A DNA stretch of 64,000 nucleotides from Sphingobacteriales bacterium (GTDB lineage Bacteria > Bacteroidota > Bacteroidia > UKL13-3): contig JAJTFA010000003.1 of the NCBI GenBank assembly GCA_021299635.1, positions 209,795-273,794 of the forward strand. The letters are read 5' to 3'. The position numbers and the translations under genes were made by a program. This document shows, one piece after another, positions 160 to 25,688 of this stretch. The notes beneath the pieces were generated by a model. It ran no database searches, was not told the origin of the DNA, and was given only the letters and a program-made list of their open reading frames with translations. Positions within the stretch are counted from its first letter, which is position 1. Each line of letters begins with the position of its first letter.

Positions 160-1101
160 TTATGATGTTTGAGCACCTAAATGATGCAGCATATCTTTAG
201 TCATATTTTCTAAATCATACTTTGGTTTCCATCCCCAGTGGTTGCGTGCTTCGGTATCATCAATACTGGCAGGCCAGCTATCGGCAATGGCTTGTCTGAA
301 ATCCGGCTTATAGCTGATGGTAAACTCAGGAATGTGTTTGCGAATAGACGCTGCAATCTCTTCCGGATCAAAACTCACGCCTGCTACATTATAGCTGCTG
401 CGTATTTTTACTTTTTCGGCAGGTGCTTCCATCAGCTCAATGGTAGCGTGTAAAGCATCCGGCATATACATCATGGGTAAAACAGTTCCTGCTTTCAAAA
501 AGCATTCGTAGGTTTTGTTTTTTAACGCCTCATGGTAGATGTGAACGGCATAATCCGTGGTGCCACCGCCCGGTGCAGATTTATAACCAATTAATCCGGG
601 ATAGCGCAAACTCCTCACATCTACACCATATTTCTGATGATAATACTCGCAAAAACGCTCGCCTGCTTGTTTGCTTATGCCGTAAATGGTATTAGGCTCC
701 ATTACGGTGTATTGAGGCGTATTAACCCTTGGTGTAGTGGGGCCAAAAACAGCAATAGAACTTGGCCAGTATAACTTTTTTATCAGCCCTTCTTTGGCAG
801 CATCCAAACCATTAAATAATCCTTGCATGTTCAGGTCCCATCCCAGTTTAGGATTTTTTTCTGCCGTGGCCGAAAGCAGTGCAGCCAATAAGTATACCTG
901 CGTAATGCCATGCTTTTTTATAATGGCATACATATTTTCTTTGTCCATTACATCCAGCAATTCATAAGGACCTTCAGCTTGTGCAGGTGCTTTTATATCA
1001 GAAGTAACAACATTGTTGGTACCAAAAATTTTTCTGAGTTCTGCACTCAGCTCGGTACCAATTTGTCCGTTAGCACCGATAATTAAAATCTTTTCAGTCA
1101 T
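160..1101 (-). CDS. L-threonine 3-dehydrogenase, SDR (epimerase-like) type
   Basis: This 313-aa protein is an extended short-chain dehydrogenase. A Rossmann glycine motif GANGQIG lies at residues 9-15. The active site is visible as SS at 114-115, Tyr140 and Lys144 (YGISK). The LLAALLSA stretch near 71-78 and the YPGLIGYKSAPGGGTTDYAV segment are characteristic of the NAD-dependent, metal-independent threonine dehydrogenases that resemble UDP-galactose epimerases. They oxidise L-threonine to 2-amino-3-ketobutyrate for conversion to glycine. No kbl ligase gene is adjacent. The gene is monocistronic here and starts with ATG 128 bases from the divergent DprE1-like gene. A sugar epimerase role is the main alternative. 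Confidence 0.8.
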   Translation of the reverse strand: MTEKILIIGANGQIGTELSAELRKIFGTNNVVTSDIKAPAQAEGPYELLDVMDKENMYAIIKKHGITQVYLLAALLSATAEKNPKLGWDLNMQGLFNGLDAAKEGLIKKLYWPSSIAVFGPTTPRVNTPQYTVMEPNTIYGISKQAGERFCEYYHQKYGVDVRSLRYPGLIGYKSAPGGGTTDYAVHIYHEALKNKTYECFLKAGTVLPMMYMPDALHATIELMEAPAEKVKIRSSYNVAGVSFDPEEIAASIRKHIPEFTISYKPDFRQAIADSWPASIDDTEARNHWGWKPKYDLENMTKDMLHHLGAQTS

Positions 1102-1229: not shown

Positions 1230-2534
1230 ATGTCTCAACCCATTCAAAGTTTTGATAAAACAACCACCACCAGCGGTGACCTCTTTCTACCAGAGCGTTA
1301 CCATGAATTATTAAACCTGCCCTTGCAAAGGCCAATTATTCCTCGTGGTGCAGGCTTATCTTACAGCGCAGCGGCTTCAGGTAATCATTGCCTATCTGTG
1401 GATATGCGGCAGTTTAATCGCATATTGGCATTCGATGAAGAGAAAGGTATTATTACCGTTGAGGCAGGAATAGCCACAGGGGAGCTTAACAATTTTCTGA
1501 TTTCCAAAGACTGGGTGCTTCCTGTTTTGCCGGGTTATCCTGCCATCACCATTGGCGGCTGTATTGGGTTTAATGTGCACGGCAAATCACAATACAAAGT
1601 TGGTACGTTTATCAATTGGATAAAATCTATCACCTTATTTCATCCCGATACAGGTTTGCAAACATGCACACCTGATACTGAATTATTTCAATTAACGGTT
1701 GGTGGCATGGGCCTTACGGGTATTATTGTTTCGGCTACCATTGCATTAAAAAAGATAACCGGCAACCTGATGTCTGTTGAGGCCATTAAAGTTAAGGATA
1801 TTAATACTGCCGTTGCACTGATGGCAGAAAAAGCTGAAGAGTATGATTATATTTATGCATGGAATAATTTTAACCTAAGGGGTAAGCATTTTGGAAAGGG
1901 CATTGTATACCTTGAAAATCATTTACCTGATAGAAAGGAATTAAACCCTAAGCCCTACATCAATAAACTAAATAGATTTAAAAAAATTCCTGTGTTGTAT
2001 AATGGCCTTACGGTAAAAACCATGAATCGGGTTTATGAATTGATGAATGCCTTGCAACCCAGGCAGCGAATAATTGATTTGGTGCAGGCTTCATTCCCTA
2101 TTTATAACAAAGAGTTGTACTACTATTTTTTTGGCAAAAAAGGGTTTAGGGAGTACCAAGTGATATTTGATTTAGATAAATGGCAGGCAGCTGTTGCTGA
2201 AATTCAGAAGATCATAGCTCAAATGAATATGCCAATTGCATTAGGGTCATTAAAAATATTTAAAGGGGAGCCTCACAATATCAGTTTTTCAGGCAGCGGA
2301 CTCTGTGTTACCATTGATGTGCCTAATAACAAAAAATCGATTTCTTTTTTTGAGGCATTAGATAAAATTACTTTAAAATATGGCGGCATCATCAACTTAA
2401 GTAAAGACAGCAGAGCTGATGCCAATTTGGTTAAACATTGTTTTCCGCATTATGAACAGTTTAAGCAGGGAATCCATCGGTATGACCCCAACCAGTTTTT
2501 TGGAAGTGAAATAAGAACCAGATTAGATTTATAA
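1230..2534 (+). CDS. FAD-dependent oxidase, DprE1-like (decaprenylphosphoryl-ribose oxidase family)
   Basis: The protein (434 aa from this ATG) has a vanillyl-alcohol-oxidase/PCMH-type FAD domain. The FAD loop PRGAGLSY is near residues 38-45, and GGCIGFNVHGK further on matches the GG...HGK segment of DprE1. The C-terminal part keeps the KDSR segment, which carries the catalytic lysine in DprE1, and ends in DPNQFFGSEIRTRL, a family hallmark. DprE1 oxidises the 2' hydroxyl of polyprenyl-phospho-ribose. The next gene encodes a DprE2-like reductase that overlaps by one base, so an analogous C2 epimerisation of a polyprenyl-linked sugar is inferred. A TTG 12 bases upstream is possible, but AGGGA before this ATG favours it. 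The actual substrate is unknown. Confidence 0.75.
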   Translation: MSQPIQSFDKTTTTSGDLFLPERYHELLNLPLQRPIIPRGAGLSYSAAASGNHCLSVDMRQFNRILAFDEEKGIITVEAGIATGELNNFLISKDWVLPVLPGYPAITIGGCIGFNVHGKSQYKVGTFINWIKSITLFHPDTGLQTCTPDTELFQLTVGGMGLTGIIVSATIALKKITGNLMSVEAIKVKDINTAVALMAEKAEEYDYIYAWNNFNLRGKHFGKGIVYLENHLPDRKELNPKPYINKLNRFKKIPVLYNGLTVKTMNRVYELMNALQPRQRIIDLVQASFPIYNKELYYYFFGKKGFREYQVIFDLDKWQAAVAEIQKIIAQMNMPIALGSLKIFKGEPHNISFSGSGLCVTIDVPNNKKSISFFEALDKITLKYGGIINLSKDSRADANLVKHCFPHYEQFKQGIHRYDPNQFFGSEIRTRLDL

Positions 2535-3277
2535 TGAAACAGGCAGCAATTATCATTGGAGCAAGCTCAGGCTTAGGACGCGCGTTGGCAGAAGCAATTG
2601 CCCACACAGGTACGGATGTAATAATGAGTGCCCGCGCAGAACAGGAACTACAAATTTTGGCCACCCATTTGCGCATCCGCTACCAAATACAGGCAGAGGT
2701 TATTCCGTTAGATCTAGCTACCCTTACTACAGCAACTGCCAAAAACTATGTTGATCAATGTTTTCAAAAAATGCCACATTGTTCTCAGGTGTATATTACT
2801 GCAGGTATTATAGATGAGCTGGATAAAGGAACCGAGGCTGTCGATTATTTGCCTAAACTTATGCAGGTAAATTGCATGGGTATAAGCTATGTGATGAATG
2901 CGTGTTGCCAATGGTTGCAAAATCGGTCAGCCAATATTACCCTTATCTCTTCCATAGCGGCCATCAGGCCCCGTGGCTCCAATATTGCCTACAGCGCTTC
3001 TAAAATTGCACTGGAGTATATGGCATTGGGTTTAAGACATCATTTTGCGCAAAGCCCATTGCGCATTCAGGTATACAGGGCTGGTTATATGGAAACCGCT
3101 TTAAGCAGAGGTAAGAAATTATTGTTTCCTGTTGCAAAGCCTGAGCGTGTTGCACACGTTCTGATTAAAAACAGACATAAAGATACGGGCTTGGTCTATG
3201 TTCCGGTATTCTGGCTGCCTTTATCGTGGGTGCTGCAATATTTGCCTTGGTTTATATTTAAAAAACTGAAATTTTAA
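2534..3277 (+). CDS. Short-chain dehydrogenase, DprE2-like
   Basis: A 247-aa classical SDR: cofactor motif GASSGLG at residues 9-15, catalytic Ser139/140, Tyr153 and Lys157 (YSASK). The C-terminal ~25 residues are strongly hydrophobic and end in KKLKF, suggesting membrane association, as expected for an enzyme acting on a polyprenyl-linked substrate. The ATG overlaps the stop of the DprE1-like oxidase (TAATG), so the two are translationally coupled. In DprE1/DprE2 pairs the reductase completes the two-step epimerisation with NADH. Assignment to DprE2 rests mainly on this neighbourhood, because SDR sequences alone are ambiguous. Confidence 0.7.
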   Translation: MKQAAIIIGASSGLGRALAEAIAHTGTDVIMSARAEQELQILATHLRIRYQIQAEVIPLDLATLTTATAKNYVDQCFQKMPHCSQVYITAGIIDELDKGTEAVDYLPKLMQVNCMGISYVMNACCQWLQNRSANITLISSIAAIRPRGSNIAYSASKIALEYMALGLRHHFAQSPLRIQVYRAGYMETALSRGKKLLFPVAKPERVAHVLIKNRHKDTGLVYVPVFWLPLSWVLQYLPWFIFKKLKF

Positions 3278-3293
3278 TTACTTTTCCCCCTTC

Positions 3294-4022
3294 ATGAGCA
3301 AGCCCAATATCAGCATATTTTTCCCGGTTTATAATGATGAGCGCACCGTGCAGGCTGTTACTGAAAAAGCACTGGCTTTTGGTAAAGAGTGTGCCGGTTT
3401 GTTTGAAGTCATTATCATAAACGACTGCAGTCCGGATAATTCAGGAAAAATTGCAGATACATTAGCCCTCACTTATTCAAATGTGCGCGTCATACATCAT
3501 CCAAAAAATTTGGGCTATGGCGCAGCAGTAAAATCTGGTTTGGGTGCAGCCCAATATGAATATGTCTGTTTTACCGATGGCGATGATGAGTATGATATGG
3601 AAGAATTTAAGAAGCTCATCAAGCTTAAAGACTACTACGACCTTATTATAACCTTTCGCTACAAAAAGATTTATTCCAATAAAAGGATTTTTATTTCTTA
3701 TATCTACAATCGTTTGCTGCGATGGATATTCAGAACCAACTTTCGTGATATTAGTACCGGTTTACGCCTGGTGAGGAAAGATATATTAGCTGATATAAAC
3801 CTGATAACAGATAGTCCGTTTATTGGCGCAGAGCTTACTATTAAAACCATGCTAAAGGGCTATAGAGTTGGTGAGGTTGGCATTCAAACTTTTCCACGTA
3901 AGTTTGGTCAGGGCGCGTCTACCAGCTTTAAAAATATTATGCGCACCATTAAAGATATGCGTAAGGTATACCGCGAAATATTTTCAGACCATTATGATTT
4001 GCCTAAGAACAGGCAACGATAA
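3294..4022 (+). CDS. GT2 family glycosyltransferase (DPM1-like)
   Basis: This 242-aa GT-A enzyme opens with ISIFFPVYNDE. NDCSPDNSG lies near residues 43-51 and a metal-binding DGDDEY at 95-100, followed by the STGLRLVRKDI acceptor-side motif typical of polyprenyl-phosphate mannose/glucose synthases. It would transfer a sugar from a nucleotide donor to a polyprenyl phosphate or glycan at the cytoplasmic membrane. No transmembrane domain is seen. It follows the DprE2-like gene by 16 bases and precedes a methyltransferase by 11, so all four genes look like one operon. Confidence 0.82.
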   Translation: MSKPNISIFFPVYNDERTVQAVTEKALAFGKECAGLFEVIIINDCSPDNSGKIADTLALTYSNVRVIHHPKNLGYGAAVKSGLGAAQYEYVCFTDGDDEYDMEEFKKLIKLKDYYDLIITFRYKKIYSNKRIFISYIYNRLLRWIFRTNFRDISTGLRLVRKDILADINLITDSPFIGAELTIKTMLKGYRVGEVGIQTFPRKFGQGASTSFKNIMRTIKDMRKVYREIFSDHYDLPKNRQR

Positions 4023-4033
4023 ATTAATATATT

Positions 4034-4678
4034 ATGAATTACGACCGTATTTACGAATATCGCTTTAAAGATGTCGACCGTGAGAAAAAACTCATGACAT
4101 GGAAAGAGATTGCTACCTTCATATATAATAAGTTGGGTAAACCAAAACGTATGCTTGATCCTGCCGCAGGGGATTGTGAGTTTATAAATCATATTGCCTC
4201 TGAAGAACGCTGGGCGGTTGATATGAGTGAAATAACACCTAAAATGGCGCAGCAAGGAATTAAGGTAATCACAGGTAATAACTTAGAAGTAGACCTGCCC
4301 GAAAATTATTTTGACGGGGTTTTTATCTCCAATTTTTTAGAGCATTTGCACAGCCAGGAGCAGGTTGCATTTTTTCTGGAGCGCATGTATAAAGCCATCA
4401 AACCCGGAGGGCGTATTGCCATCATGGGACCTAACTTTAAATATACCTACAAATATTATTTTGATTTTGCCGATCATACTGTGCTGCTTTCTGAAGGCGG
4501 AGTTGCCGAGCATTTGTATGGTGCAGGTTTTAATCCCATTGAAGTGCATCCAAAATTTTTGCCATTATCATTTAAAAGCAGGTTACCTGTAAATGCTTTT
4601 TTGGTCCGTACCTATTTAAATATGCCAATAGTGTGGCCGATTATGGGTAAGCAATTTTTACTCATTGGTCAGAAGTAA
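4034..4678 (+). CDS. Class I SAM-dependent methyltransferase
   Basis: A 214-aa Rossmann-fold methyltransferase. Motif I is LDPAAGDCEFI at residues 41-51, an acidic motif follows near AVDMSE, and FLEHL with IKPGGRIAIMGPN forms the later motifs. The position at the end of the DprE-like/GT2 cluster suggests a sugar or lipid-linked intermediate as substrate, but this is inference. The ATG lies 11 bases after the GT2 stop. Confidence 0.75.
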   Translation: MNYDRIYEYRFKDVDREKKLMTWKEIATFIYNKLGKPKRMLDPAAGDCEFINHIASEERWAVDMSEITPKMAQQGIKVITGNNLEVDLPENYFDGVFISNFLEHLHSQEQVAFFLERMYKAIKPGGRIAIMGPNFKYTYKYYFDFADHTVLLSEGGVAEHLYGAGFNPIEVHPKFLPLSFKSRLPVNAFLVRTYLNMPIVWPIMGKQFLLIGQK

Positions 4679-4717: not shown

Positions 4718-5329
4718 ATGAATATAGCAATTATCGGAACAGGAAATGTTGGCGGTGCATTGGCTTCTGCCTGGGCAGCCAAAGGGCATCATATTTATCT
4801 GGGTGTGCAGGATCTCAATCAATTTAAGGGTAAAGTTTTGCTCAAGAATCAACATACGCAGGCATGCTCCATTGCAGAAGCAGTTGCCAAGGCAGAGGTA
4901 ATATTAATTGCCATACCACCACAAGCCATTTTTGATGTGATAGAACAAATGGGTGATATAACTGGTAAAACCATAATTGATGCCACCAATGCCGTGAGAG
5001 TGGTACCTGATCCATATAAAACGGTGTATCATTGCCTTGCCGATAAAACCAAAGCAGATGTGGTAAAATGTTTTAACAGTACCGGTTTTGAAAACATGCT
5101 TAACCCGATTTATAATGGGCAAGGTATTGATATGTTTATGGCAGGCGATAGTGATAAGGCTAAAGCTACTGTCAGTAGTTTGGCAAGCGATGCAGGTTTT
5201 GGATCATGTATAGATTTTGGCAAGGATGATAAAGTTGGGCTCTTAGAAAAATTTGCCTTATCATGGATCAATCTGGCCATTATGCAGGGCCATGGTCGCA
5301 ATATGGCGTTTAAAGTGGTGCGCAGGTAA
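4718..5329 (+). CDS. NAD(P)-binding reductase, F420-dependent NADP oxidoreductase-like
   Basis: A 203-aa single-domain Rossmann protein that begins MNIAIIGTGNVGGALA, with the dinucleotide motif at residues 7-12. Later segments include VILIAIPPQAI and IDATNAVR, which match the NADPH-dependent F420 reductase-like (NPD) family. The size also fits that family. Bacteroidota generally lack F420, so another electron acceptor is likely. The real substrate cannot be read from sequence. It follows the hairpin after the methyltransferase and converges on the LIC_10190-like gene. Confidence 0.7.
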   Translation: MNIAIIGTGNVGGALASAWAAKGHHIYLGVQDLNQFKGKVLLKNQHTQACSIAEAVAKAEVILIAIPPQAIFDVIEQMGDITGKTIIDATNAVRVVPDPYKTVYHCLADKTKADVVKCFNSTGFENMLNPIYNGQGIDMFMAGDSDKAKATVSSLASDAGFGSCIDFGKDDKVGLLEKFALSWINLAIMQGHGRNMAFKVVRR

Positions 5330-5370: not shown

Positions 5371-6981
5371 TTATGGTGCAATCTTAAATCCGTCATTGAT
5401 ATCAGAGGAGCGCAACATAATTTTATCTGCGATGTAATATGTGCAAGGAAATTGATCCCAGCACAGGTTGTTTGATTGTACCACATAAACTGGAAAACCG
5501 CTGATGCTGCTCAGGGTTAGCTTATGTTGCGGATATGGTTGTGTGCGAACAATGGATAATTTATCGGAGTGTTTTACGCTTAGCCAAATCAGCAGCAAAC
5601 TTAAGATAAGCATATAAACTTTGCGTGCCCAAGCAAATGAAGGTAAATTGTATTGTGATAAGGCTATACCCATTATCACAATCATATATCCATACATAAA
5701 ACGCATATGTGGTCCGCTGTTAAATAACATGAACCAGCCTGCAAGAGCTGCCAGTGTTTGTACCGGAAAAGATTTTTGTTTAATGGAGATAATCAGCAGG
5801 CTCAGCAAAGATGCAACAAACGCTAAAACCATTCCCTTGTTAAACAAGTCGAGTTGCTTAAACCAAACCGGTACCCATTGCTCAAATGAGAGCTGTGCTG
5901 TTTCATAAATATTGGAATAAGGTATACGACCCCAACCTTTTAAAACAATTTTATCATATTCAAAATAGGAGGCAGGAACTTTCCAGTCAAGCTGGAATAA
6001 ATCAATTTGATTAAATGGATACAACAAATAACCGCCACGCACCACATTACCAGTCAGCCAAGGCAGAATCCAGATGCACCCGAACGCAATTATCATTAAA
6101 AGATAAATCCGGAATTGTTTGTTGCCACGAAGAAACCACATCAACAATAAAATTAAAAACAGCAGCAACAAGGCCGTTGCCTTAATGGTGATGCCCCAAA
6201 ATATCAGCAATGAAATAATGATGCTGTAAAAGCCTTTCGATGCATTGTTTTGCCTACTTTCCAGATACAGATCAAAACATAGGAAAACGATTCCGGTTAT
6301 TACAATATCCGGGGTTACGCTACCAATAAATGCAGTCTTAACCATAAGCAGTAAAAACAAAATGATTGGAATACGAAACAAGCGTTGCCGTGCCTCACTC
6401 AGATTGCGAGTAAAATAAATCATGAGTAGGATGTACCAAATTCCATTTAATACATACATCGAATGAAAACCTGCATTGTGGCATCCGAAAAATGCTTGCA
6501 GATTAAACCACCAGTTATTATTAACCAAGGGGCGGTTAAAATTACCAATACCCGGGAGTAGTTTATAATGCTCAGCCCACTTGATTGCTTGCAGATGATA
6601 ATCGGCAATATCACCACTACCGGGTTTTATGCATACACTTACTATGGCAATAAGCAGCAGGATTAAATTAAACCAAATGCTTTTCCGTATGCGGTAAATC
6701 AAATCAGGGAATACGCTTACCAACTGATTACTGCAAGCAGCAAGGACAGTGCTTATGACTAGCCAGATTGCAACATGAGAGCGCCAATCCAGCGGAATCA
6801 AAAAATGCAGAATCGAAATAATACATGAGATAACGGCAAATCCAATAATAACTACAAGAGGCGAGCGCAAATGCCAGGGCTCATGTTCGCCTGTTAATTT
6901 CATTATAGAAAGTATGGTGGATACCCCTGCAGCATAGCCCAGGAAAGTGGCATAGAGCATGAGCATCAATACTTGCAGCAT
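5371..6981 (-). CDS. Polytopic membrane protein, LIC_10190-like (possible GT-C glycosyltransferase)
   Basis: A 536-aa protein with about 12-13 hydrophobic segments and almost no soluble domain. After the fourth or fifth helix it has DIADYHLQAIKWAEHY and PGIGNF, a motif I associate with the LIC_10190 family, where an acidic residue and His in the first large periplasmic loop recall GT-C glycosyltransferases. The C-terminal ~60 residues form a short soluble tail with a CWDQFPCTYY segment. It starts six bases after the YfhO gene stops, so the two minus-strand genes are probably co-transcribed. Function in envelope glycan assembly is inferred from fold and context only. Confidence 0.55.
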   Translation of the reverse strand: MLQVLMLMLYATFLGYAAGVSTILSIMKLTGEHEPWHLRSPLVVIIGFAVISCIISILHFLIPLDWRSHVAIWLVISTVLAACSNQLVSVFPDLIYRIRKSIWFNLILLLIAIVSVCIKPGSGDIADYHLQAIKWAEHYKLLPGIGNFNRPLVNNNWWFNLQAFFGCHNAGFHSMYVLNGIWYILLMIYFTRNLSEARQRLFRIPIILFLLLMVKTAFIGSVTPDIVITGIVFLCFDLYLESRQNNASKGFYSIIISLLIFWGITIKATALLLLFLILLLMWFLRGNKQFRIYLLMIIAFGCIWILPWLTGNVVRGGYLLYPFNQIDLFQLDWKVPASYFEYDKIVLKGWGRIPYSNIYETAQLSFEQWVPVWFKQLDLFNKGMVLAFVASLLSLLIISIKQKSFPVQTLAALAGWFMLFNSGPHMRFMYGYMIVIMGIALSQYNLPSFAWARKVYMLILSLLLIWLSVKHSDKLSIVRTQPYPQHKLTLSSISGFPVYVVQSNNLCWDQFPCTYYIADKIMLRSSDINDGFKIAP

Positions 6982-6987
6982 AATTTA

Positions 6988-9432
6988 TCAGCTCTTTGGT
7001 TCTGTTTTTCTTCGTCTGAAAAAGGAAAGGCCACCGGCCACTACAATTCCTCCATATAAAGCGATAGAGGCAAAAAATGAAATGCGCTCTCCGGTCGCAA
7101 CTACTTCCGGTTCAAAAACAAATTCTATACGGTGCTTACCTGCAGGAATCTTCATGCCCCTTAATACATAATTGCATCGCAAATAATCTATTGATTGCCC
7201 GTCAATACTTGCTTTCCATCCTTTATCATAATAAATTTCAGAAAATACGGCCAGGTTTTCTGCGCTACTGTTCGATTCATAAACCAGTTTATTAGGAGCA
7301 TAACTCAACAATCTAATAGATGCTGTAGAGTCTGCCGTTGGCGTTAAACCTTTAAGCATAACCGCAAAACGTGTATCAACCACTGCTGTAGTTTTGGTAT
7401 TGAGATTTGTTAGTGAATCTATTTCTGCATCAGCATTGGCAACAGTGAGAATTTTATTTACAAACCATGCATTCCCATTAGCTTCAGGGTTTTGCTGGGC
7501 AAACATATTATTGGCACTATCGCCCACAATAAAATATTTAACATTTAGCATATTGAATGTTTGCATATTGCCACGCGACAAATGAAATTCAATCAACTCC
7601 TGATACCTGCGCATTTTTGCACCATGATATCCGCCAATGGATTTATGCCAGTAAGAGGTGAGGGCATCCTGATCCAGTCGCTGTGTAGTATTGTAAACAC
7701 GGTAGTGTACATCCCTATCTTGTAAAATCATTTCATCGGCTTGTGATTTTGGAAAGGAAGCTTCCAGGTTTTTCTTTTTGTTTTCAAAATCTGAGTCGTT
7801 GAGGTAACGTTTGTCAACGCCCCACAAGTCTATAACAATCAGACCTAACAAAACACCCACAAATAATTGCTGCTTCACTTTCCCGTTCAGATAAAACCAG
7901 ATAAGTGTGAATGCAGCACCTATAAATAGTAATGACCTAAGTGCATCCGCTTTTAGCAAGGCTTCACGATCCTTAACAATCGATTCTCTAAGCCATTCAG
8001 GCAGGCGGTCGTCAACCGGTGAAATGAAGCTAAGAAAAAGATCAGGCATAAATGCAAAAACTGCGCATAGCCCCCCAACAATATAAAAGCTGTACAGTAA
8101 GGGTTTTTTCAAATCGACCGGCTTTATTTTTCCTGAAAGCAAATCGCGCAAGGCAAGCAGGGCAAGCAGTGGAAATGTTGTTTGGGTAATGCACAGAATA
8201 AAAGTTACCGAGCGGAATTTGTTATACAAAGGAAAGTTGTAGAAGAATAAATCCGTTAGTGTCATAAAATTTTTGCCCATAGAAAGCATAATAGCCAGCG
8301 CGGAAATGCCCAGTATCCACCATTTTTCGGAACCTTTGATTACAAACAGGCCAAGCACAAACAGAAAACAAATTATGGCACCATAGTAAATGGGGCCGGC
8401 TGTAAATGGCTGGTCACCCCAGTAAACAGGCATACCCTGAATGATTTGCTTTGCGTTGGGAACCCCATTTTGTTTTAAGATCTTATAGGTTTCGGAAGAG
8501 GTGCTGAGTTCTGCCGAACTGGAGCCGCCATAAAAATTAGGGATGAGCAGGGTAAATGGTTCTGCAACGCCATTGCTCCATTGCAAGGCATAATCTTTAT
8601 CCAATCCGGAGGAGGCAATAGCGGCATTGCCTTCACCTGTAGCCGTTTTGGTAAGTTCTGATTTACCGCGGATACTGTATTTTCCGTATTCCTCTGTAGG
8701 CAGTAGATTATTCGCCCCGGTAGCCACACCAACGGCTGCAGCAACAGCTAAAAATACACCGCAGATAAGTAAGTGTGCAATCTTTTTGTCTTTGGATGCA
8801 ATCACAATCTCGGCTATCATCCACACGCCAATCAGAATCATAAGGTAATAGGTTATTTGCAAGTGGCCTGAAGCCAGCTGCAGCGATAAAGCAATACCTG
8901 TGAGCAAGGCCCCAATGAGCCTGTTTTTGTGTAAAGTATAATTAATACCGGCAAGTACCAGGGGCATAAAAGCGATGGCATTTCCTTTGCCCACGTGCCC
9001 GGCATCAATATTTATAAGGTTAAATGAGGAAAACATAAATGCCAGACTTCCTGCAATGGCCAGCCAGGGCGATACCTCAAAGGTGAGCAATAGGATATAA
9101 AAGCAAATAAACAATAGAAACATAGTGTCTACCGGGTTGGGTAAAACCCTGCTAATAAAAGCACTTACCGTTGATGTGAAATTGTTTTTATAAGATGGCC
9201 CGATGAGGTAGGTGGGCATGCCGCTAAATACAGAATTGGTCCAAAAAGTGCGCTCTCCGCTTGCCTTTTGATATTGTGCAATTTCATTATAGGTAGCTTG
9301 CCATTGCTGCACATCATGTTGTTTAAGGGATTTTCCGGAAAGGAGCGGATTGAAATAAATGATAATGGCCGTAAGCGCAATCATGATGGCTGCCAGGTGA
9401 GGAAACCATTTTTTTTGCAAAATTGTATTCAT
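6988..9432 (-). CDS. YfhO family membrane protein
   Basis: An 814-aa polytopic protein with an N-terminal membrane region of about 12 helices over residues 1-550, and a late soluble domain followed by a final helix and RRRK tail near the C-terminus. Features typical of YfhO include FSGMPTYL after the first long loop, LINIDAGHVGKGNA, and the late YDKGWKASIDG segment with the conserved tail PAGKHRIEFVFEP. In Firmicutes YfhO-type proteins are GT-C enzymes that decorate lipoteichoic acid. In Bacteroidota they are common but uncharacterised. It is the first gene of a two-gene minus-strand unit and lies divergent from the HmuY-like operon. Confidence 0.85.
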   Translation of the reverse strand: MNTILQKKWFPHLAAIMIALTAIIIYFNPLLSGKSLKQHDVQQWQATYNEIAQYQKASGERTFWTNSVFSGMPTYLIGPSYKNNFTSTVSAFISRVLPNPVDTMFLLFICFYILLLTFEVSPWLAIAGSLAFMFSSFNLINIDAGHVGKGNAIAFMPLVLAGINYTLHKNRLIGALLTGIALSLQLASGHLQITYYLMILIGVWMIAEIVIASKDKKIAHLLICGVFLAVAAAVGVATGANNLLPTEEYGKYSIRGKSELTKTATGEGNAAIASSGLDKDYALQWSNGVAEPFTLLIPNFYGGSSSAELSTSSETYKILKQNGVPNAKQIIQGMPVYWGDQPFTAGPIYYGAIICFLFVLGLFVIKGSEKWWILGISALAIMLSMGKNFMTLTDLFFYNFPLYNKFRSVTFILCITQTTFPLLALLALRDLLSGKIKPVDLKKPLLYSFYIVGGLCAVFAFMPDLFLSFISPVDDRLPEWLRESIVKDREALLKADALRSLLFIGAAFTLIWFYLNGKVKQQLFVGVLLGLIVIDLWGVDKRYLNDSDFENKKKNLEASFPKSQADEMILQDRDVHYRVYNTTQRLDQDALTSYWHKSIGGYHGAKMRRYQELIEFHLSRGNMQTFNMLNVKYFIVGDSANNMFAQQNPEANGNAWFVNKILTVANADAEIDSLTNLNTKTTAVVDTRFAVMLKGLTPTADSTASIRLLSYAPNKLVYESNSSAENLAVFSEIYYDKGWKASIDGQSIDYLRCNYVLRGMKIPAGKHRIEFVFEPEVVATGERISFFASIALYGGIVVAGGLSFFRRRKTEPKS

Positions 9433-19569: not shown

Positions 19570-20733
19570 ATGACCCCTGAGCACAATCTTGAATTATCTA
19601 TTGTAATGCCATGCCTGAATGAGGCCGAAACCATTGGCGCATGCATTGAAAAAGCATTGCGTTACTTAACGCAGCATAATATCAGCGGAGAAGTAATTGT
19701 TTCTGATAACGGAAGTACCGATGGCTCCATTGCTATTGCCGAGAAATTGGGTGCCCGTGTGGTGCATGCACCTGAGAAGGGCTATGGCAGCGCATTGATG
19801 TATGGCATCGAAGCAGCATATGGTAAGTATGTAATTATGGGTGATTCAGATGATAGCTATGATTTTTCTTCTCTGAATCCTTTTATTGAAAAATTACGAG
19901 AGGGATATGATTTGGTAGTTGGCAACAGATTTAAGGGTGGCATTAGCAAAGGCGCCATGCCTTTCTTGCATAAATATCTGGGTAATCCGGTTCTTTCCTT
20001 TATTGGAAAGCTTTTTTTTCACTCTTCCATAAACGATTTTCATTGCGGTCTGCGTGGCTTTAGGCAGGATCTTGTATCGCTCTTAAATCTGCGTACTACA
20101 GGTATGGAGTTTGCCAGTGAGATGATTGTAAAAGCAAGTTTATTTAGACTGCGCGTCTGCGAAGTGCCAACCACGTTGAGTGTAGCAGGACGTAGCCGAC
20201 CACCTCACCTGCGCACATGGCAGGACGGCTGGAGGCATCTCCGCTTTTTACTCATTTACAGTCCGCGCTGGTTATTTCTGTATCCGGGTATCTTACTCAT
20301 TTTATCAGGTATAATATCAGGTGCTCTTATTATTAATGGCCCAGTTCATTTATTTAATATTTATTTCGATACCAATACCATGCTTTATTCAGGAGCAGCT
20401 GCTATCATTGGTTTTCAGTTAATGGTGTTTGGTATTTTTACTCGCAGGTATGCCATTCAAGCCGGACTCATGCCTGATAAGAAAGCAGTTTCGTTTATTG
20501 AAAAATGGCTTACACTTGAGCGAGGAATTATTGCAGGTGTATTTGTTACGCTTACCGGAATAGGAGGGTCGGCATATTCATTATACCTTTGGGATCAGGT
20601 TGATTTTGGAACGCTTGAATACTCGTCTATTTTGCGTGTGGTTATACCTTCGGTTGTTTTTATTATCCTTGGGATTCAAACCATTTTTTCAAGTTTCTTT
20701 TTAAGCGTTCTTACCCTTAACCGAAAGCGATGA
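19570..20733 (+). CDS. GT2 glycosyltransferase with C-terminal membrane domain
   Basis: 387 aa. The N-terminal GT-A domain starts LSIVMPCLNEAE, with VSDNGSTDGS at 44-53 and the metal-binding DSDDSYD at 92-98, then NDFHCGLRGFR, the acceptor motif of polyprenyl-phosphate sugar synthases. After residue ~235 there are four predicted transmembrane helices. It likely charges a polyprenyl phosphate with hexose for use by GT-C enzymes in the periplasm. The methyltransferase gene that follows overlaps as ATGA. Confidence 0.85.
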   Translation: MTPEHNLELSIVMPCLNEAETIGACIEKALRYLTQHNISGEVIVSDNGSTDGSIAIAEKLGARVVHAPEKGYGSALMYGIEAAYGKYVIMGDSDDSYDFSSLNPFIEKLREGYDLVVGNRFKGGISKGAMPFLHKYLGNPVLSFIGKLFFHSSINDFHCGLRGFRQDLVSLLNLRTTGMEFASEMIVKASLFRLRVCEVPTTLSVAGRSRPPHLRTWQDGWRHLRFLLIYSPRWLFLYPGILLILSGIISGALIINGPVHLFNIYFDTNTMLYSGAAAIIGFQLMVFGIFTRRYAIQAGLMPDKKAVSFIEKWLTLERGIIAGVFVTLTGIGGSAYSLYLWDQVDFGTLEYSSILRVVIPSVVFIILGIQTIFSSFFLSVLTLNRKR

Positions 20734-21278
20734 AGGCGTTTGATTACTTGCTGCAAAAGCAAAGAATTGCACAGGCTGCGGCATTTATAAATACAGGAGC
20801 TCATGTGTTGGATATTGGAAGTTATGATGGCGAACTTTTCAAGCAGTTGCAGCATAAAAAAATTACAGGTATTGGTGTGGATCCGCTTGCTGAAAATACA
20901 GACGCAGGCAATTATAGTTTGGTTAAAGGAATATTTCCGGATGCCTTTGCTCCAGGTGAGCAGTTTGATTGTATTACCATGCTGGCTGTGATAGAGCACA
21001 TACCACCTCAGGCACAACACAAACTGGCCGAAGCTTGCCATCAATATCTGAAGCCTAAAGGAAGGGTTATAATAACAGTTCCTTCGCCCTTTGTTGATTA
21101 TATTTTGCTGGTTTTACGTCTATTCCGCATCATCGATGGCATGTCGCTGGAGGAGCACTATGGCTTCAAAACAGCTGATACTCCGCACATTTTTGCACCA
21201 CCGCAATTTAAACTGCTCAGACACAAAATTTTCCAGTTTGGGCTTAATCATGTATTTGTATTTGAAAAAGTATCGTAA
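20730..21278 (+). CDS. Class I SAM-dependent methyltransferase
   Basis: 182 aa. VLDIGSYDGEL near residues 26-36 is motif I, DCITMLAVIEHIPP is motif IV and YLKPKGRVIITVPSP is motif V/VI. The small size fits a single catalytic domain. Translational coupling to the upstream GT2 suggests it acts on a lipid-linked sugar or glycan, but the substrate is not readable from sequence. Confidence 0.78.
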   Translation: MKAFDYLLQKQRIAQAAAFINTGAHVLDIGSYDGELFKQLQHKKITGIGVDPLAENTDAGNYSLVKGIFPDAFAPGEQFDCITMLAVIEHIPPQAQHKLAEACHQYLKPKGRVIITVPSPFVDYILLVLRLFRIIDGMSLEEHYGFKTADTPHIFAPPQFKLLRHKIFQFGLNHVFVFEKVS

Positions 21279-21318
21279 AGGTCTTTTCTTTACAACTTAT
21301 TATTAAGCAAAGCGTATT

Positions 21319-22749
21319 GTGAGCAAACCCATAAAAGTAGCTATTATTGGTGCCGGCCCAGCCGGTATTACTGCTGCCTATCAGTTAAGCAAAGAAATTT
21401 CATCCGTTGATTTATTTGAGGCAGGTCCTTCAGTAGGTGGGCTTGCAAAATCGGTTGAGCTATGGGGCCAAACCGTGGATATTGGTCCGCACCGTTTTTT
21501 TAGCAGTGATACGCGGGTTAATTCTCTATGGCTTGAAGTAGTGAAAGAAGATTATGCAATGGTGAATCGCCTCACGCGCATCCTCTATAAAAATAGCTTG
21601 TATTACTACCCCATTAAAGCACTTGATGCATTAGGTAAATTGGGCGTGTTTGAAGCAGCCCGATGTATGCTCAGTTTTGGTATGGAAAGAATATTTCCAA
21701 CAAGAGACAAAAGTACCTTTGAAGGCTGGGTTCGCAGCCGCTTCGGGAAAAGGCTTTATGAAATATTTTTTAAAACCTACAGCGAAAAACTTTGGGGTAT
21801 TCAATGCAACGAACTGGATGCTGATTTTGCCGCACAGCGTATCAAAAAACTATCTCTGTGGGAGGCTGCTAAGGCTGCATTATTTGGGGATAAAATTAAA
21901 AAACACAAAACACTGGTGGATGAATTTGCTTATCCGCTAGAGGGAACAGGTATGGTGTATAACCGAATGGAGAAGCTGATTAAAGAAAAAGGTGGCAACG
22001 TATTTTTAAACACGCCTGTAAAATGTGTGATCGTTGAAGGTGGTGTAGCCAAAGGATTAGAACTGGAAAATGGCGAGGTAAAACAATATGATCATATTAT
22101 TTCTTCCATGCCACTAACACTTTTGGTAAGCAGAATTGATGAGGCCCCGCAGCAAATTAAAAATTTGAATGCACAGCTGCGTTTCAGAAATACCATTATT
22201 GTATTTATTGAAGTTGATGCAACCAATTTGTTTGAAGATAATTGGCTGTATGTGCATTCAACAGATTTGCGTACAGGGCGCATCACCAATTTCAGAAACT
22301 GGGTACCACAATTGTATAAGGATAAAAAAACCAGCATACTTGCTTTGGAATATTGGTGCTATGATGAAGATGATTTCTGGAAATACACAGATGAACAACT
22401 GAATAAATTAGGCGAGGAGGAAATACGAAAAACAGGATTAATTGGCAATGCTAACATTTTACATGCACATACCTATCGTATTCCGCGCTGCTATCCTGTT
22501 TACTCAAAAGGCTACAAGGAAATTCTGAACCCAGTAGAGCAATATTTAAGTAGCATTCAGCATCTGCATGTAATTGGTCGATATGGCGCATTTAAATACA
22601 ACAATCAGGATCATTCCATACTAATGGGTATGTTAGCTGCCGAAAACATTTTGCAACAGGCAGGGCACAACCTTTGGGATATAAATACCGACTACGAAAG
22701 TTATCAGGAAAGTTCTGTAATTACTAAAACCGGATTGGTAAAAAAATGA
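21319..22749 (+). CDS. FAD-dependent oxidoreductase, UDP-galactopyranose mutase/amine-oxidase-like
   Basis: 476 aa starting at GTG. The dinucleotide motif IIGAGPAGITAAYQL begins near residue 9, then an FEAG segment, GGLAKSVE and DIGPHRFF. The pattern is that of the UGM/protoporphyrinogen-oxidase-like superfamily; such proteins often sit in glycan clusters and are annotated as NAD(P)/FAD-dependent oxidoreductases. It is longer than classical UDP-galactopyranose mutase (about 370-400 aa), so a mutase function is not assured. The last four bases overlap the start of the next gene. Confidence 0.75.
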   Translation: MSKPIKVAIIGAGPAGITAAYQLSKEISSVDLFEAGPSVGGLAKSVELWGQTVDIGPHRFFSSDTRVNSLWLEVVKEDYAMVNRLTRILYKNSLYYYPIKALDALGKLGVFEAARCMLSFGMERIFPTRDKSTFEGWVRSRFGKRLYEIFFKTYSEKLWGIQCNELDADFAAQRIKKLSLWEAAKAALFGDKIKKHKTLVDEFAYPLEGTGMVYNRMEKLIKEKGGNVFLNTPVKCVIVEGGVAKGLELENGEVKQYDHIISSMPLTLLVSRIDEAPQQIKNLNAQLRFRNTIIVFIEVDATNLFEDNWLYVHSTDLRTGRITNFRNWVPQLYKDKKTSILALEYWCYDEDDFWKYTDEQLNKLGEEEIRKTGLIGNANILHAHTYRIPRCYPVYSKGYKEILNPVEQYLSSIQHLHVIGRYGAFKYNNQDHSILMGMLAAENILQQAGHNLWDINTDYESYQESSVITKTGLVKK

Positions 22750-25688
22750 GCAAAAAGAACACACCCAAACCTTCAGCCGAACAGATAAAAACCTTAAGCG
22801 ACCAAGAGCTTACCTTTTTATTTGATGTAGCTAAAAAGCCCGATGATGCAAATTTGGTGGCTCAGGCTATATTAAAAGTCCGCACCGAGGCATCATTAAT
22901 TGTGCTTGATAAAAGTGGTGTGGCTGCAACCCTCCCTGAAGTTTTAGCACTCAAGGAAAAAGGCAGATGCCATGTTACAGGTAATCTTCAGGATTGGGCG
23001 GAGCACTGCGGAAAGGTTGTTTATATGGTTGATGATGCAGCCTCATTTATGCCACAGGCTGTGGTAAGTTGTTTCGCACTGAACAAAAAATCATTTACAG
23101 AATCGGATGCAGTTTATGCAGGTGAGTTTAATGAGCAGTCGGGTAAGTTGTCTATAAACATTTTACAAAAAACAGGTATTGGTTTATACAATTTGCTTGC
23201 AGGTATGCTCTTACCTGCAGGTTTAAAAGATTACACACACCCATTTGTATTTTTTGGTAAAGACGCTGCGCTAAAAGGGTTCAGCAGCAATCACCATAAA
23301 AGCATTTCTGTTTGCAGCCGCCTTGCCTATTTAAAAACAACCATTGTTGCAATCACACTCTCGGCAAAAGAGCATCAGTTGCGTAAGGTTAGTTTTAAAA
23401 AGATTGCAAGAAATATTCTTGGCCCACGAATTGGCTGGTTCATCAAAGATCCACTGATGAAATTTGGTGCAGAAGATGCGGCAGGTAATCAGCCGTTATT
23501 TCGTTTACTTTTTGCTGCATTTTTTCTGTTTACATGCATTGCCATGCCTTACCTTAGTAAGGATTTTGGCATAACCTGGGATGCTAAGCGCCATAATCAG
23601 TATGGCTACCAGATGCTCAACTATTTTACCTCGTTTGGAAGCGATTCAACGGCATTATCTGCTACATCACCTATACAGGAATTCAGATATTATGGCGAAC
23701 ATTTTAATGTAATCAGTGCATTTCTTAATACCTATTTTGGAGTGTTGGGTGAGTTTGAAATGCGGCATTTGCTCAATGCATTTTATGGCTTGCTGGCCAT
23801 GTTATTTGCTGCCCTTGCTGCTAAAGAAATTACATCTTGGCGGGGTGCATTTTTTGCATTGATAATCATTTTTTGCAGCCCTGTATTTTTTGCACACAGC
23901 ATGAATAATCCTACTGATATTCCATTTGCTGCAGGGTGTGCAATGGCACTCTATTATTTAATAAAGATACTTCAGCAGCTGCCCAAGCCTGATTTATCGC
24001 ACTTGGTTTTATGCGGTTCTGGTATTGGTATGGCCATTGGCTCACGCGTAGGTGGCATCATCTGGTATGCTTATATCGGTTTATTTTTAGGTATTTCTTG
24101 GCTGCTTGTTATCAAAAAAGAAGGCATACCAAGCGCAATGAAACTCATTTGGCCTTATACACGTATATTACTGCTCATTATTATCATAGGTCAATTGGTT
24201 GGTATTTCATTATGGCCATTTGCACAACAGCAGCCATTTACCAATTGGTATGAAGCGCTTAAAAAATCAACTGAAGGTGCATATTTCACTTTTAACCATG
24301 AGTTGTTTGAAGGTGTGCGCATGTATATGGCAAATGTGCCCTGGTATTATTTGCCTAAATTTATTTTTATTAATACTCCTGAAGTAGTTTGGGTGGGCAT
24401 TGCTTTGCTTGCTTCATTGCTATGGGTTTTAAAAAGGAACTATAAAAATTGGTATGCCATAGGAGTAGTAATATTTGTTGCCATTTTCCCAATAGCATAT
24501 GCCGAAGTGCAGAGCATGTATTATTATAATGGATGGAGGCATTATTTGTTTGTTTATCCGCCAATAGTAATACTTGCTGCTTGCGGTTGGGATAGCTTGG
24601 GTGCACTGACAAAAAATAAAATATTAAGTTATGCATCATTGGCAGGTGTATTGCTTTTGTGTGCACTACCGGCATTCTGGATGATACAAAATCATCCGAA
24701 CGAGTGTGTGTATTTTAATGCTGTAAGCGGGGGTACAAAAGCTGCTTACGGTAAATATGAAATGGATTATTACTCCAACTCATGCCGTCAGGCAGCAGAG
24801 TGGTTGGCAAAGCAAGAGCCAAACAAAAAAATGATAGTAGGCATAAACAATGAGCCACTAACAGCATCTTACTACGCCAATAAATATAATCCGGATATGG
24901 AGTTTCGGTGGATGCGTGAATATGAAGAGCAAAAGTTGCCGTGGGATTATGCCATTCTCACTTCACGCACGTTTTCATCGAAAGAACTGGAAGCCGGTGC
25001 CTTCCCACCTAAAGGTACAGTATATACGGTAATGGCTGATGGTGTTCCATTGGCTACTGTTGTTAAAAGAGAGAACGACTGGATGCCTAAAGGGTATCAG
25101 TATTTTGAAGCCAGAAATTTTGATACGGCTATTTTTTACTTCCTTCAGGCAGCAGCTTATAATCCACACGATGAAGAAGTTTTTAGAATGCTGGGTTTAT
25201 GCTATCTCAGCAAAGGAAACGCTCCTGAGGCTATCAGTAATTTAAACAGAGCGATTGATATTTATCCTGAAAATTATATGGCATGGTCTACCCTTGGTTT
25301 GCTAGAAATTAACCTGAATAAAAATCCGGATAAAGCTATTGAGTATTTCAAGAAAGCCAATAGTTATAAATTTAATTATACCGATGCTTATTATTATACA
25401 GCTATGGCACATTATCAGAAAGGCGATTTCGGCACCGGGCTTAAGTTTCTTGAATTGGCGGTGAAGCGGGGTGGCGGAAGTGTTGCAGATGTTTATTACA
25501 ACCTTGGTTTAGGATATTACAATACAGGAAGCTACAAAAAAGCTGAAGATAATCTGATACTGGCACTCACCTTGGATCAAAAAAATGCAATGTCATACCG
25601 CCTCCTTGCTGAGGTTTTTAATAAGCAAGGCAAATCAGCCGAGGCACAGGAATGTATGAACAGATATTATGCGCTCGGTGGTAAGTAG
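22746..25688 (+). CDS. Pseudo-GT2 / GT-C glycosyltransferase / TPR fusion protein
   Basis: 980 aa in three parts. Residues ~1-240 look like a worn GT-A (DPM1-type) domain: VDDAASFMP and a KTGIGLYNLLAG region are placed as in GT2 enzymes, but no DXD or acidic donor site is seen. Residues ~250-670 form a GT-C membrane domain of about 10-12 helices, with an early loop DFGITWDAKRHNQYG holding the acidic pair expected in GT39-like transferases. The last ~200 residues are about five TPR repeats. It overlaps the flavoprotein gene by four bases. A periplasmic sugar transferase using a polyprenyl donor is inferred. Confidence 0.7.
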   Translation: MSKKNTPKPSAEQIKTLSDQELTFLFDVAKKPDDANLVAQAILKVRTEASLIVLDKSGVAATLPEVLALKEKGRCHVTGNLQDWAEHCGKVVYMVDDAASFMPQAVVSCFALNKKSFTESDAVYAGEFNEQSGKLSINILQKTGIGLYNLLAGMLLPAGLKDYTHPFVFFGKDAALKGFSSNHHKSISVCSRLAYLKTTIVAITLSAKEHQLRKVSFKKIARNILGPRIGWFIKDPLMKFGAEDAAGNQPLFRLLFAAFFLFTCIAMPYLSKDFGITWDAKRHNQYGYQMLNYFTSFGSDSTALSATSPIQEFRYYGEHFNVISAFLNTYFGVLGEFEMRHLLNAFYGLLAMLFAALAAKEITSWRGAFFALIIIFCSPVFFAHSMNNPTDIPFAAGCAMALYYLIKILQQLPKPDLSHLVLCGSGIGMAIGSRVGGIIWYAYIGLFLGISWLLVIKKEGIPSAMKLIWPYTRILLLIIIIGQLVGISLWPFAQQQPFTNWYEALKKSTEGAYFTFNHELFEGVRMYMANVPWYYLPKFIFINTPEVVWVGIALLASLLWVLKRNYKNWYAIGVVIFVAIFPIAYAEVQSMYYYNGWRHYLFVYPPIVILAACGWDSLGALTKNKILSYASLAGVLLLCALPAFWMIQNHPNECVYFNAVSGGTKAAYGKYEMDYYSNSCRQAAEWLAKQEPNKKMIVGINNEPLTASYYANKYNPDMEFRWMREYEEQKLPWDYAILTSRTFSSKELEAGAFPPKGTVYTVMADGVPLATVVKRENDWMPKGYQYFEARNFDTAIFYFLQAAAYNPHDEEVFRMLGLCYLSKGNAPEAISNLNRAIDIYPENYMAWSTLGLLEINLNKNPDKAIEYFKKANSYKFNYTDAYYYTAMAHYQKGDFGTGLKFLELAVKRGGGSVADVYYNLGLGYYNTGSYKKAEDNLILALTLDQKNAMSYRLLAEVFNKQGKSAEAQECMNRYYALGGK

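Follow-up and report, generated by a model that had tools for sequence, protein, structure and literature searches.

DprE1 and DprE2 are tuberculosis drug-target enzymes, and every DprE1/DprE2 system that, to our knowledge, has been characterised acts on ribofuranose and starts from the ribose of phosphoribosyl pyrophosphate (PRPP). According to the excerpt of PMC11127046 considered here, three-component pentofuranose systems consist of a polyprenyl-phosphate-ribose synthase, a flippase, a GT-C glycosyltransferase and an optional epimerase, and the polyprenyl-phosphate-ribose entry of these donors is contrasted with a GtrB-type entry. Here, we describe a four-gene operon in a 64-kb stretch of contig JAJTFA010000003.1 from a Sphingobacteriales bacterium (the window, to which all coordinates refer), which encodes a DprE1-like flavin oxidase, a DprE2-like short-chain dehydrogenase/reductase (SDR), a family 2 glycosyltransferase (GT2) and a methyltransferase (Table 1). 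Judged from sequences and structure models, there is about an even case that the GT2, the epimerising oxidase and SDR, and the methyltransferase of this operon together yield an unusual lipid-linked sugar donor, which may be methylated. More tentatively, we hypothesize that a DprE1/DprE2-type epimerase acts here on a polyprenyl-phosphate sugar attached by the GT2, probably a hexose, and that unusual (methylated) sugars would be made on the lipid and not as nucleotide sugars.

Kinship and substrate pocket of the oxidase

The oxidase matches the DprE1 model NF053785 end to end (residues 33-434) with 242 bits, the next best family reaching 54 bits, and its best matches in the PDB are DprE1 (4aut, E 4e-37), so that the description of the protein as DprE1-like in an earlier note on this DNA is borne out. 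The score lies below the NCBIfam equivalog cut-off of 500 bits for this model; a UbiA-linked DprE1 of Burkholderia fails it too, with 319 bits, and the cut-off is therefore narrow. When the last 255 residues were searched alone, all nine distinct PDB sequences matched at E<=1 were DprE1, and the first 49 Foldseek matches of the structure model (predicted local distance difference test score, pLDDT, 85) in the PDB were likewise all DprE1. In the alignment to DprE1, the KDSR segment is conserved, as the earlier note had reported, and so is the C-terminal S-x(4)-RL. The C-terminal domain, in particular, argues firmly for homology with DprE1. A scan of the contigs of the same genome with the single oxidase sequence found one locus only, and no match to the ALO domain (PF04030) was found in this genome.

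The substrate pocket was compared with that of 115 relatives, 107 from Bacteroidota and eight plasmid-borne, in M. tuberculosis DprE1 numbering carried over from Rhodococcus DprE1 by a constant offset of 13, which rests on motif positions. DprE1 residues 58, 60, 118, 132, 314, 317, 334, 387, 415 and 418, among others, are at inhibitor sites according to excerpts of PMC9525719 and PMC8154581; positions 130, 136, 230 and 336 were added by our own choice and not from that literature. At two positions that are invariant in the 115 relatives, Q334 and L317, the window oxidase has E and I, respectively. Position 415, Y in 114 relatives with one gap, is N in the window oxidase, position 118 (T in 113, S in two) is Y, position 136 (H in 111, N in four) is Q, and position 314 (F or Y in 111) is S. 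H132, K134 and W230, each present in all 115 relatives, are kept, as are Y60 and K418 (each in 114); position 365 was left out of the count, since the MAFFT and phmmer alignments disagree over 363-367. On this pattern of kept and changed residues, the redox machinery of the oxidase looks intact and the sugar pocket does not.

The entry step and the partner enzymes

An oxidase relative at E<=1e-10 is found in 85 genomes, that of the window included, in a sample of 395 Bacteroidota genomes. The loci were surveyed without the class matches G748 and G763, without G192, and without rows L110 and L114 (no oxidase ORF called) and L197-L200 and L239 (non-DprE1 controls). A UbiA gene lies at most three genes away in 81 of the 107 Bacteroidota DprE1-like loci (window and congener apart), mostly directly upstream and often in a form of ~475 residues with an extra N-terminal domain. 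The genome of the window (G000) has four UbiA proteins, namely CtaB, a GGGP-synthase-like protein, MenA and an unassigned one (L004), which adjoins a polyketide-synthase-like gene and shows weak likeness to prenyltransferase models. Searched at E<=0.001, the decaprenyl-phosphate phosphoribosyltransferase model NF008978 has no match in G000 or in its congener G443, which is 99% complete; 21 of the 24 DprE1-bearing genomes searched have one, the third genome without being G157. This search left out G458, G520, G528, G555, G572, G628, G707 and G724, which account for eight of the 26 loci without adjacent UbiA.

The earlier note did not expect the usual lipid-phosphate-arabinofuranose as the product, and the lack of a detected UbiA phosphoribosyltransferase in two congeneric genomes, together with the remodelled pocket, sides with it. 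In the alternative, the pair would epimerise polyprenyl-phosphate-ribofuranose at C2, a divergent UbiA protein or an unrelated phosphoribosyltransferase would attach the ribose, and the GT2 and methyltransferase would serve another step. The substrate of the characterised DprE1/DprE2 systems counts for this alternative, and L004 would offer a candidate to which no function is assigned. Also, the excerpt of PMC11127046 postulates PRPP-derived polyprenyl-phosphate-ribose as the common entry. However, the absence of an NF008978 match, pocket changes at positions that hardly vary, if at all, among the 115 relatives, and the setting of L004 with its weak prenyltransferase likeness make an ordinary arabinofuranose donor seem unlikely.

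The best NCBIfam match of the SDR is PRK07102 with 126 bits (cut-off 267), it reaches 77 bits against the DprE2 model NF053786 (cut-off 250), and DprE2 stands far down its list of PDB matches; the UbiA-linked DprE2 of Burkholderia scores 338 bits against PRK07102, above that cut-off. In a search with a profile built on 23 SDRs that come from DprE1 loci, the window SDR stands first in its own genome, with 134.5 bits versus 112.8 for the next of 12 matches. The catalytic residues and C-terminal motif listed in Table 1 are retained together with an R-x-R-x-x-N run, and the loop differs from that of the other aligned SDRs. Taken with the pairing to the oxidase, the profile rank and the retained catalytic residues uphold its proposed likeness to DprE2. 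The earlier note had treated the lack of a shared oxidase-SDR neighbourhood in other genomes as a point against its proposal; the pair is recurrent. At three loci (L116, L117 and L201), the SDR precedes the oxidase without an adjacent UbiA gene, and UbiA phosphoribosyltransferase matches are found elsewhere in those genomes.

The GT2 aligns with lipid-phosphate-sugar synthases beyond the common N-terminal GT2 half, both in NCBIfam (AglJ 6-227, ArnC 5-208 and PpgS 8-204, below the curated cut-offs) and in the PDB (ArnC 9hwj 5-218 and DPMS 5mlz 5-213), and this near full-length alignment agrees with its assignment to the polyprenyl-phosphate-sugar-synthase type. In the phylum sample, the relatives nearest to it (38-41% identity, from six genomes besides its own) adjoin an epimerase-family SDR in all six cases (two confirmed by Pfam), and Pfam identifies an ORF next to one of them as a methyltransferase. 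No GT2 homolog was found on plasmids at E<=1e-20. The methyltransferase is rare in the phylum sample (4/395 genomes at E<=1e-25) and has no homolog in phages; homologs occur in seven plasmid records, of which four were read. A Burkholderia stagnalis plasmid (L248) carries the order methyltransferase-UbiA-DprE1-DprE2-SDR-FAD protein-GtrA, and a Polymorphobacter plasmid the order glycosyltransferase-methyltransferase-GT39-GtrA. In the Bacteroidota genome G015 (L080), UbiA-DprE1 is followed downstream by a methyltransferase, an SDR and a FAD protein that share 62-66% identity with their Burkholderia counterparts. The methyltransferase thus travels with both kinds of lipid-linked-sugar system, and the window locus seems to combine the two. 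The sugar is named neither by the relatives of the GT2 nor by those of the methyltransferase. As observations in their own right, a UbiA-DprE1 module with methyltransferase, SDR and FAD protein is common to Betaproteobacteria (L248) and Bacteroidota (L080), and in G190 (L255) a methyltransferase 63% identical to that of the window is isolated among unrelated genes.

The locus in related genera and its neighbourhood

The methyltransferase was found at E<=1e-20 in 12 of 64 genomes of the order, and nine loci from the genera g172 and g176 were read. In eight of these, two extended SDRs of ~356 residues lie upstream of the methyltransferase and of a GT2 that differs from that of the window, and a homolog of the left-flank gene (160-1101) is found on the divergent side; the ninth locus is cut by a contig end. 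The one pair of these SDRs that was scanned resembles nucleoside diphosphate (NDP)-sugar dehydratases/epimerases. The LIC_10190 protein is next in seven of the nine loci, absent in one and cut off in one. The oxidase, SDR and GT2 of the window therefore occupy the slot that is filled in the sister genera by NDP-sugar-type enzymes and another GT2; between genera, the donor cassette of this locus is exchanged with NDP-sugar enzymes.

The four same-strand genes and their spacing, as given in the earlier note, were confirmed from the ORF coordinates: the oxidase and SDR ORFs have one base in common (TAATG), and gaps of 16 and 11 bases separate the SDR from the GT2 and the GT2 from the methyltransferase, respectively. 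The mechanical start of the oxidase ORF is a TTG at 1218, upstream of the ATG. In the congener G443, the gene order is the same, with protein identities of 90.3% (oxidase), 98.0% (SDR), 98.8% (GT2) and 98.6% (methyltransferase). The corresponding ratios of nonsynonymous to synonymous substitution rates are 0.17, 0.09, 0.03 and 0.03, so that all four genes are under purifying selection and hence not a chance array of ORFs. The epimerase-family gene at the left edge is presumably threonine-dehydrogenase-like. Elsewhere in the window (19570-25688, + strand), a second sugar cluster encodes an AglJ-like GT2 (387 aa), a methyltransferase, a PRK07208-type FAD protein (540 bits, above the cut-off) and a PMT/TPR membrane protein.

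Table 1. Genes of the operon and its surroundings (positions in the 64-kb window)
Feature	Position	Strand	Remarks
DprE1-like FAD oxidase	1230..2534	+	ATG at 1230; altered substrate-pocket residues
DprE2-like SDR	2534..3277	+	S-Y-K and FIFKKL C-terminus kept; AIRPR where relatives have GDRGR
GT2	3294..4022	+	Soluble polyprenyl-phosphate-sugar-synthase type (AglJ/ArnC/PpgS/DPMS-like, nearly full length)
Methyltransferase	4034..4678	+	Class I, S-adenosylmethionine-dependent; homologs found repeatedly in clusters of the GT2/GT39/GtrA and UbiA/DprE1/DprE2 kinds
NADP/F420-dependent oxidoreductase-like gene	4718..5329	+	Downstream of the methyltransferase; kept in congener; any link to the four-gene system tentative
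LIC_10190 family membrane protein	5371..6981	-	Candidate GT-C glycosyltransferase; stays near methyltransferase/GT2 in related genera
YfhO-family membrane protein	6988..9432	-	Second candidate GT-C; kept in congener
NAD-dependent epimerase-family gene	160..1101	-	Left-hand anchor of the locus in related genera

A possible pathway and its relation to known systems

The reactions, their order, the sugar, the carbon inverted and the acceptor we infer as follows. The GT2 would move a sugar from a nucleotide sugar onto polyprenyl phosphate, and the flavin oxidase would oxidise a single ring hydroxyl on this lipid-bound sugar to a ketone. Next, the SDR would reduce the ketone from the opposite face to yield the epimer, following the DprE1/DprE2 logic on a sugar other than ribofuranose. 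The methyltransferase may act on the sugar either while it is still on the lipid or once it has been transferred. The last step, transfer of the sugar onto a glycan or protein at the surface, is probably the work of a GT-C-like membrane protein from the other strand (LIC_10190 family and/or YfhO); the best structural matches of the LIC_10190 protein are mostly GT-C enzymes (ALG3, Pmt4, AftA, Emb, AftB and ArnT).

Several points weigh against this pathway. The matches of the oxidase, SDR and GT2 to their families are all below the curated NCBIfam cut-offs. The LIC_10190 model has a pLDDT of 56 and its matches a Z of at most 9.5, at which the tool warns of possibly just a common arrangement. The window ORFs that were read include no recognisable flippase (GtrA, MATE or SMR), no search for one having been made in the rest of the genome. 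The methyltransferase and the GT2 could belong to the synthesis of another product, and the entry could still be ribose via an unrelated phosphoribosyltransferase. Finally, in the phylogeny, the other check that the earlier note had proposed, the oxidases of the window and its congener form a long branch whose placement floats among the trees, of which three were built (one shown in quick form). One tree puts the pair outside a 48-row core with support of 77; in the last, a small tree, it joins a pair of non-DprE1 oxidases with support of 85, unstarred. A 23-row core is not rejected in approximately unbiased tests, whether the window pair is excluded from it (p 0.66) or included (p 0.54). A join with the Legionella oxidase L234 carries a long-branch warning. 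L234 itself, from a Legionella adelaidensis plasmid, belongs to an oxidase-SDR pair that lies amid housekeeping genes; the annotation shows neither UbiA nor other sugar genes next to it.

The long branch and the unstarred join would fit an oxidase and SDR that had left the DprE1/DprE2 role and, upstream or downstream of the reaction of the GT2, epimerised or oxidised another class of substrate, for instance a nucleotide sugar, the end of a glycan or a different lipid; the altered SDR loop and the NDP-sugar-type SDRs in the same slot of related genera point the same way. We nevertheless consider such a change of role improbable: the C-terminal substrate domain of the oxidase matches DprE1 only, and kin of DprE1 and DprE2 stay together, as they recurrently do in the lipid-linked epimerase.

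If the hypothesis of epimerisation on a GT2-attached lipid sugar is true, it would represent a general route to diversify glycan donors, decoupled from PRPP-ribose entry, and the oxidase would offer a naturally occurring counterpart with which to compare the pocket of DprE1, a validated tuberculosis drug target. In the open-licence literature, we found no paper that pairs a GtrB-like GT2 entry with a DprE1/DprE2-like epimerase, nor one on DprE1, alone or with DprE2, in Bacteroidota, nor one that treats DprE1 together with a methyltransferase and a glycosyltransferase.

The window locus shares the oxidase-SDR pair, the fold, the flavin and catalytic positions and the gene adjacency with mycobacterial DprE1/DprE2, the decaprenyl-phosphate-ribose 2'-epimerase that works with the phosphoribosyltransferase DPPRS (Rv3806c). 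In contrast to the mycobacterial system, it has no detected UbiA phosphoribosyltransferase, holds a GT2 and a methyltransferase in the operon, and is changed at oxidase positions 118, 314, 317, 334 and 415. With the GtrB/GtrA/GT-C glucosylation and PgfS/PgfM-type systems it has in common a GT2 of the polyprenyl-phosphate-sugar-synthase type and candidate GT-C membrane proteins, whereas it differs from them in its DprE1/DprE2-like pair, which we do not know from either. The three-component pentofuranose systems, as far as the excerpt of PMC11127046 describes them, are alike in having a lipid-linked donor and an epimerase, and the window has candidate GT-Cs next door; its entry, however, is a GtrB/DPM1-like GT2 and not a PRPP-using UbiA protein, with an extra methyltransferase and no flippase seen. 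The Burkholderia stagnalis plasmid cluster likewise combines the methyltransferase family with DprE1/DprE2 kin, but it has a UbiA phosphoribosyltransferase and GtrA and no GT2 in the run. The arrangement in the window would join a GtrB-like entry to a DprE1/DprE2-like epimerase.

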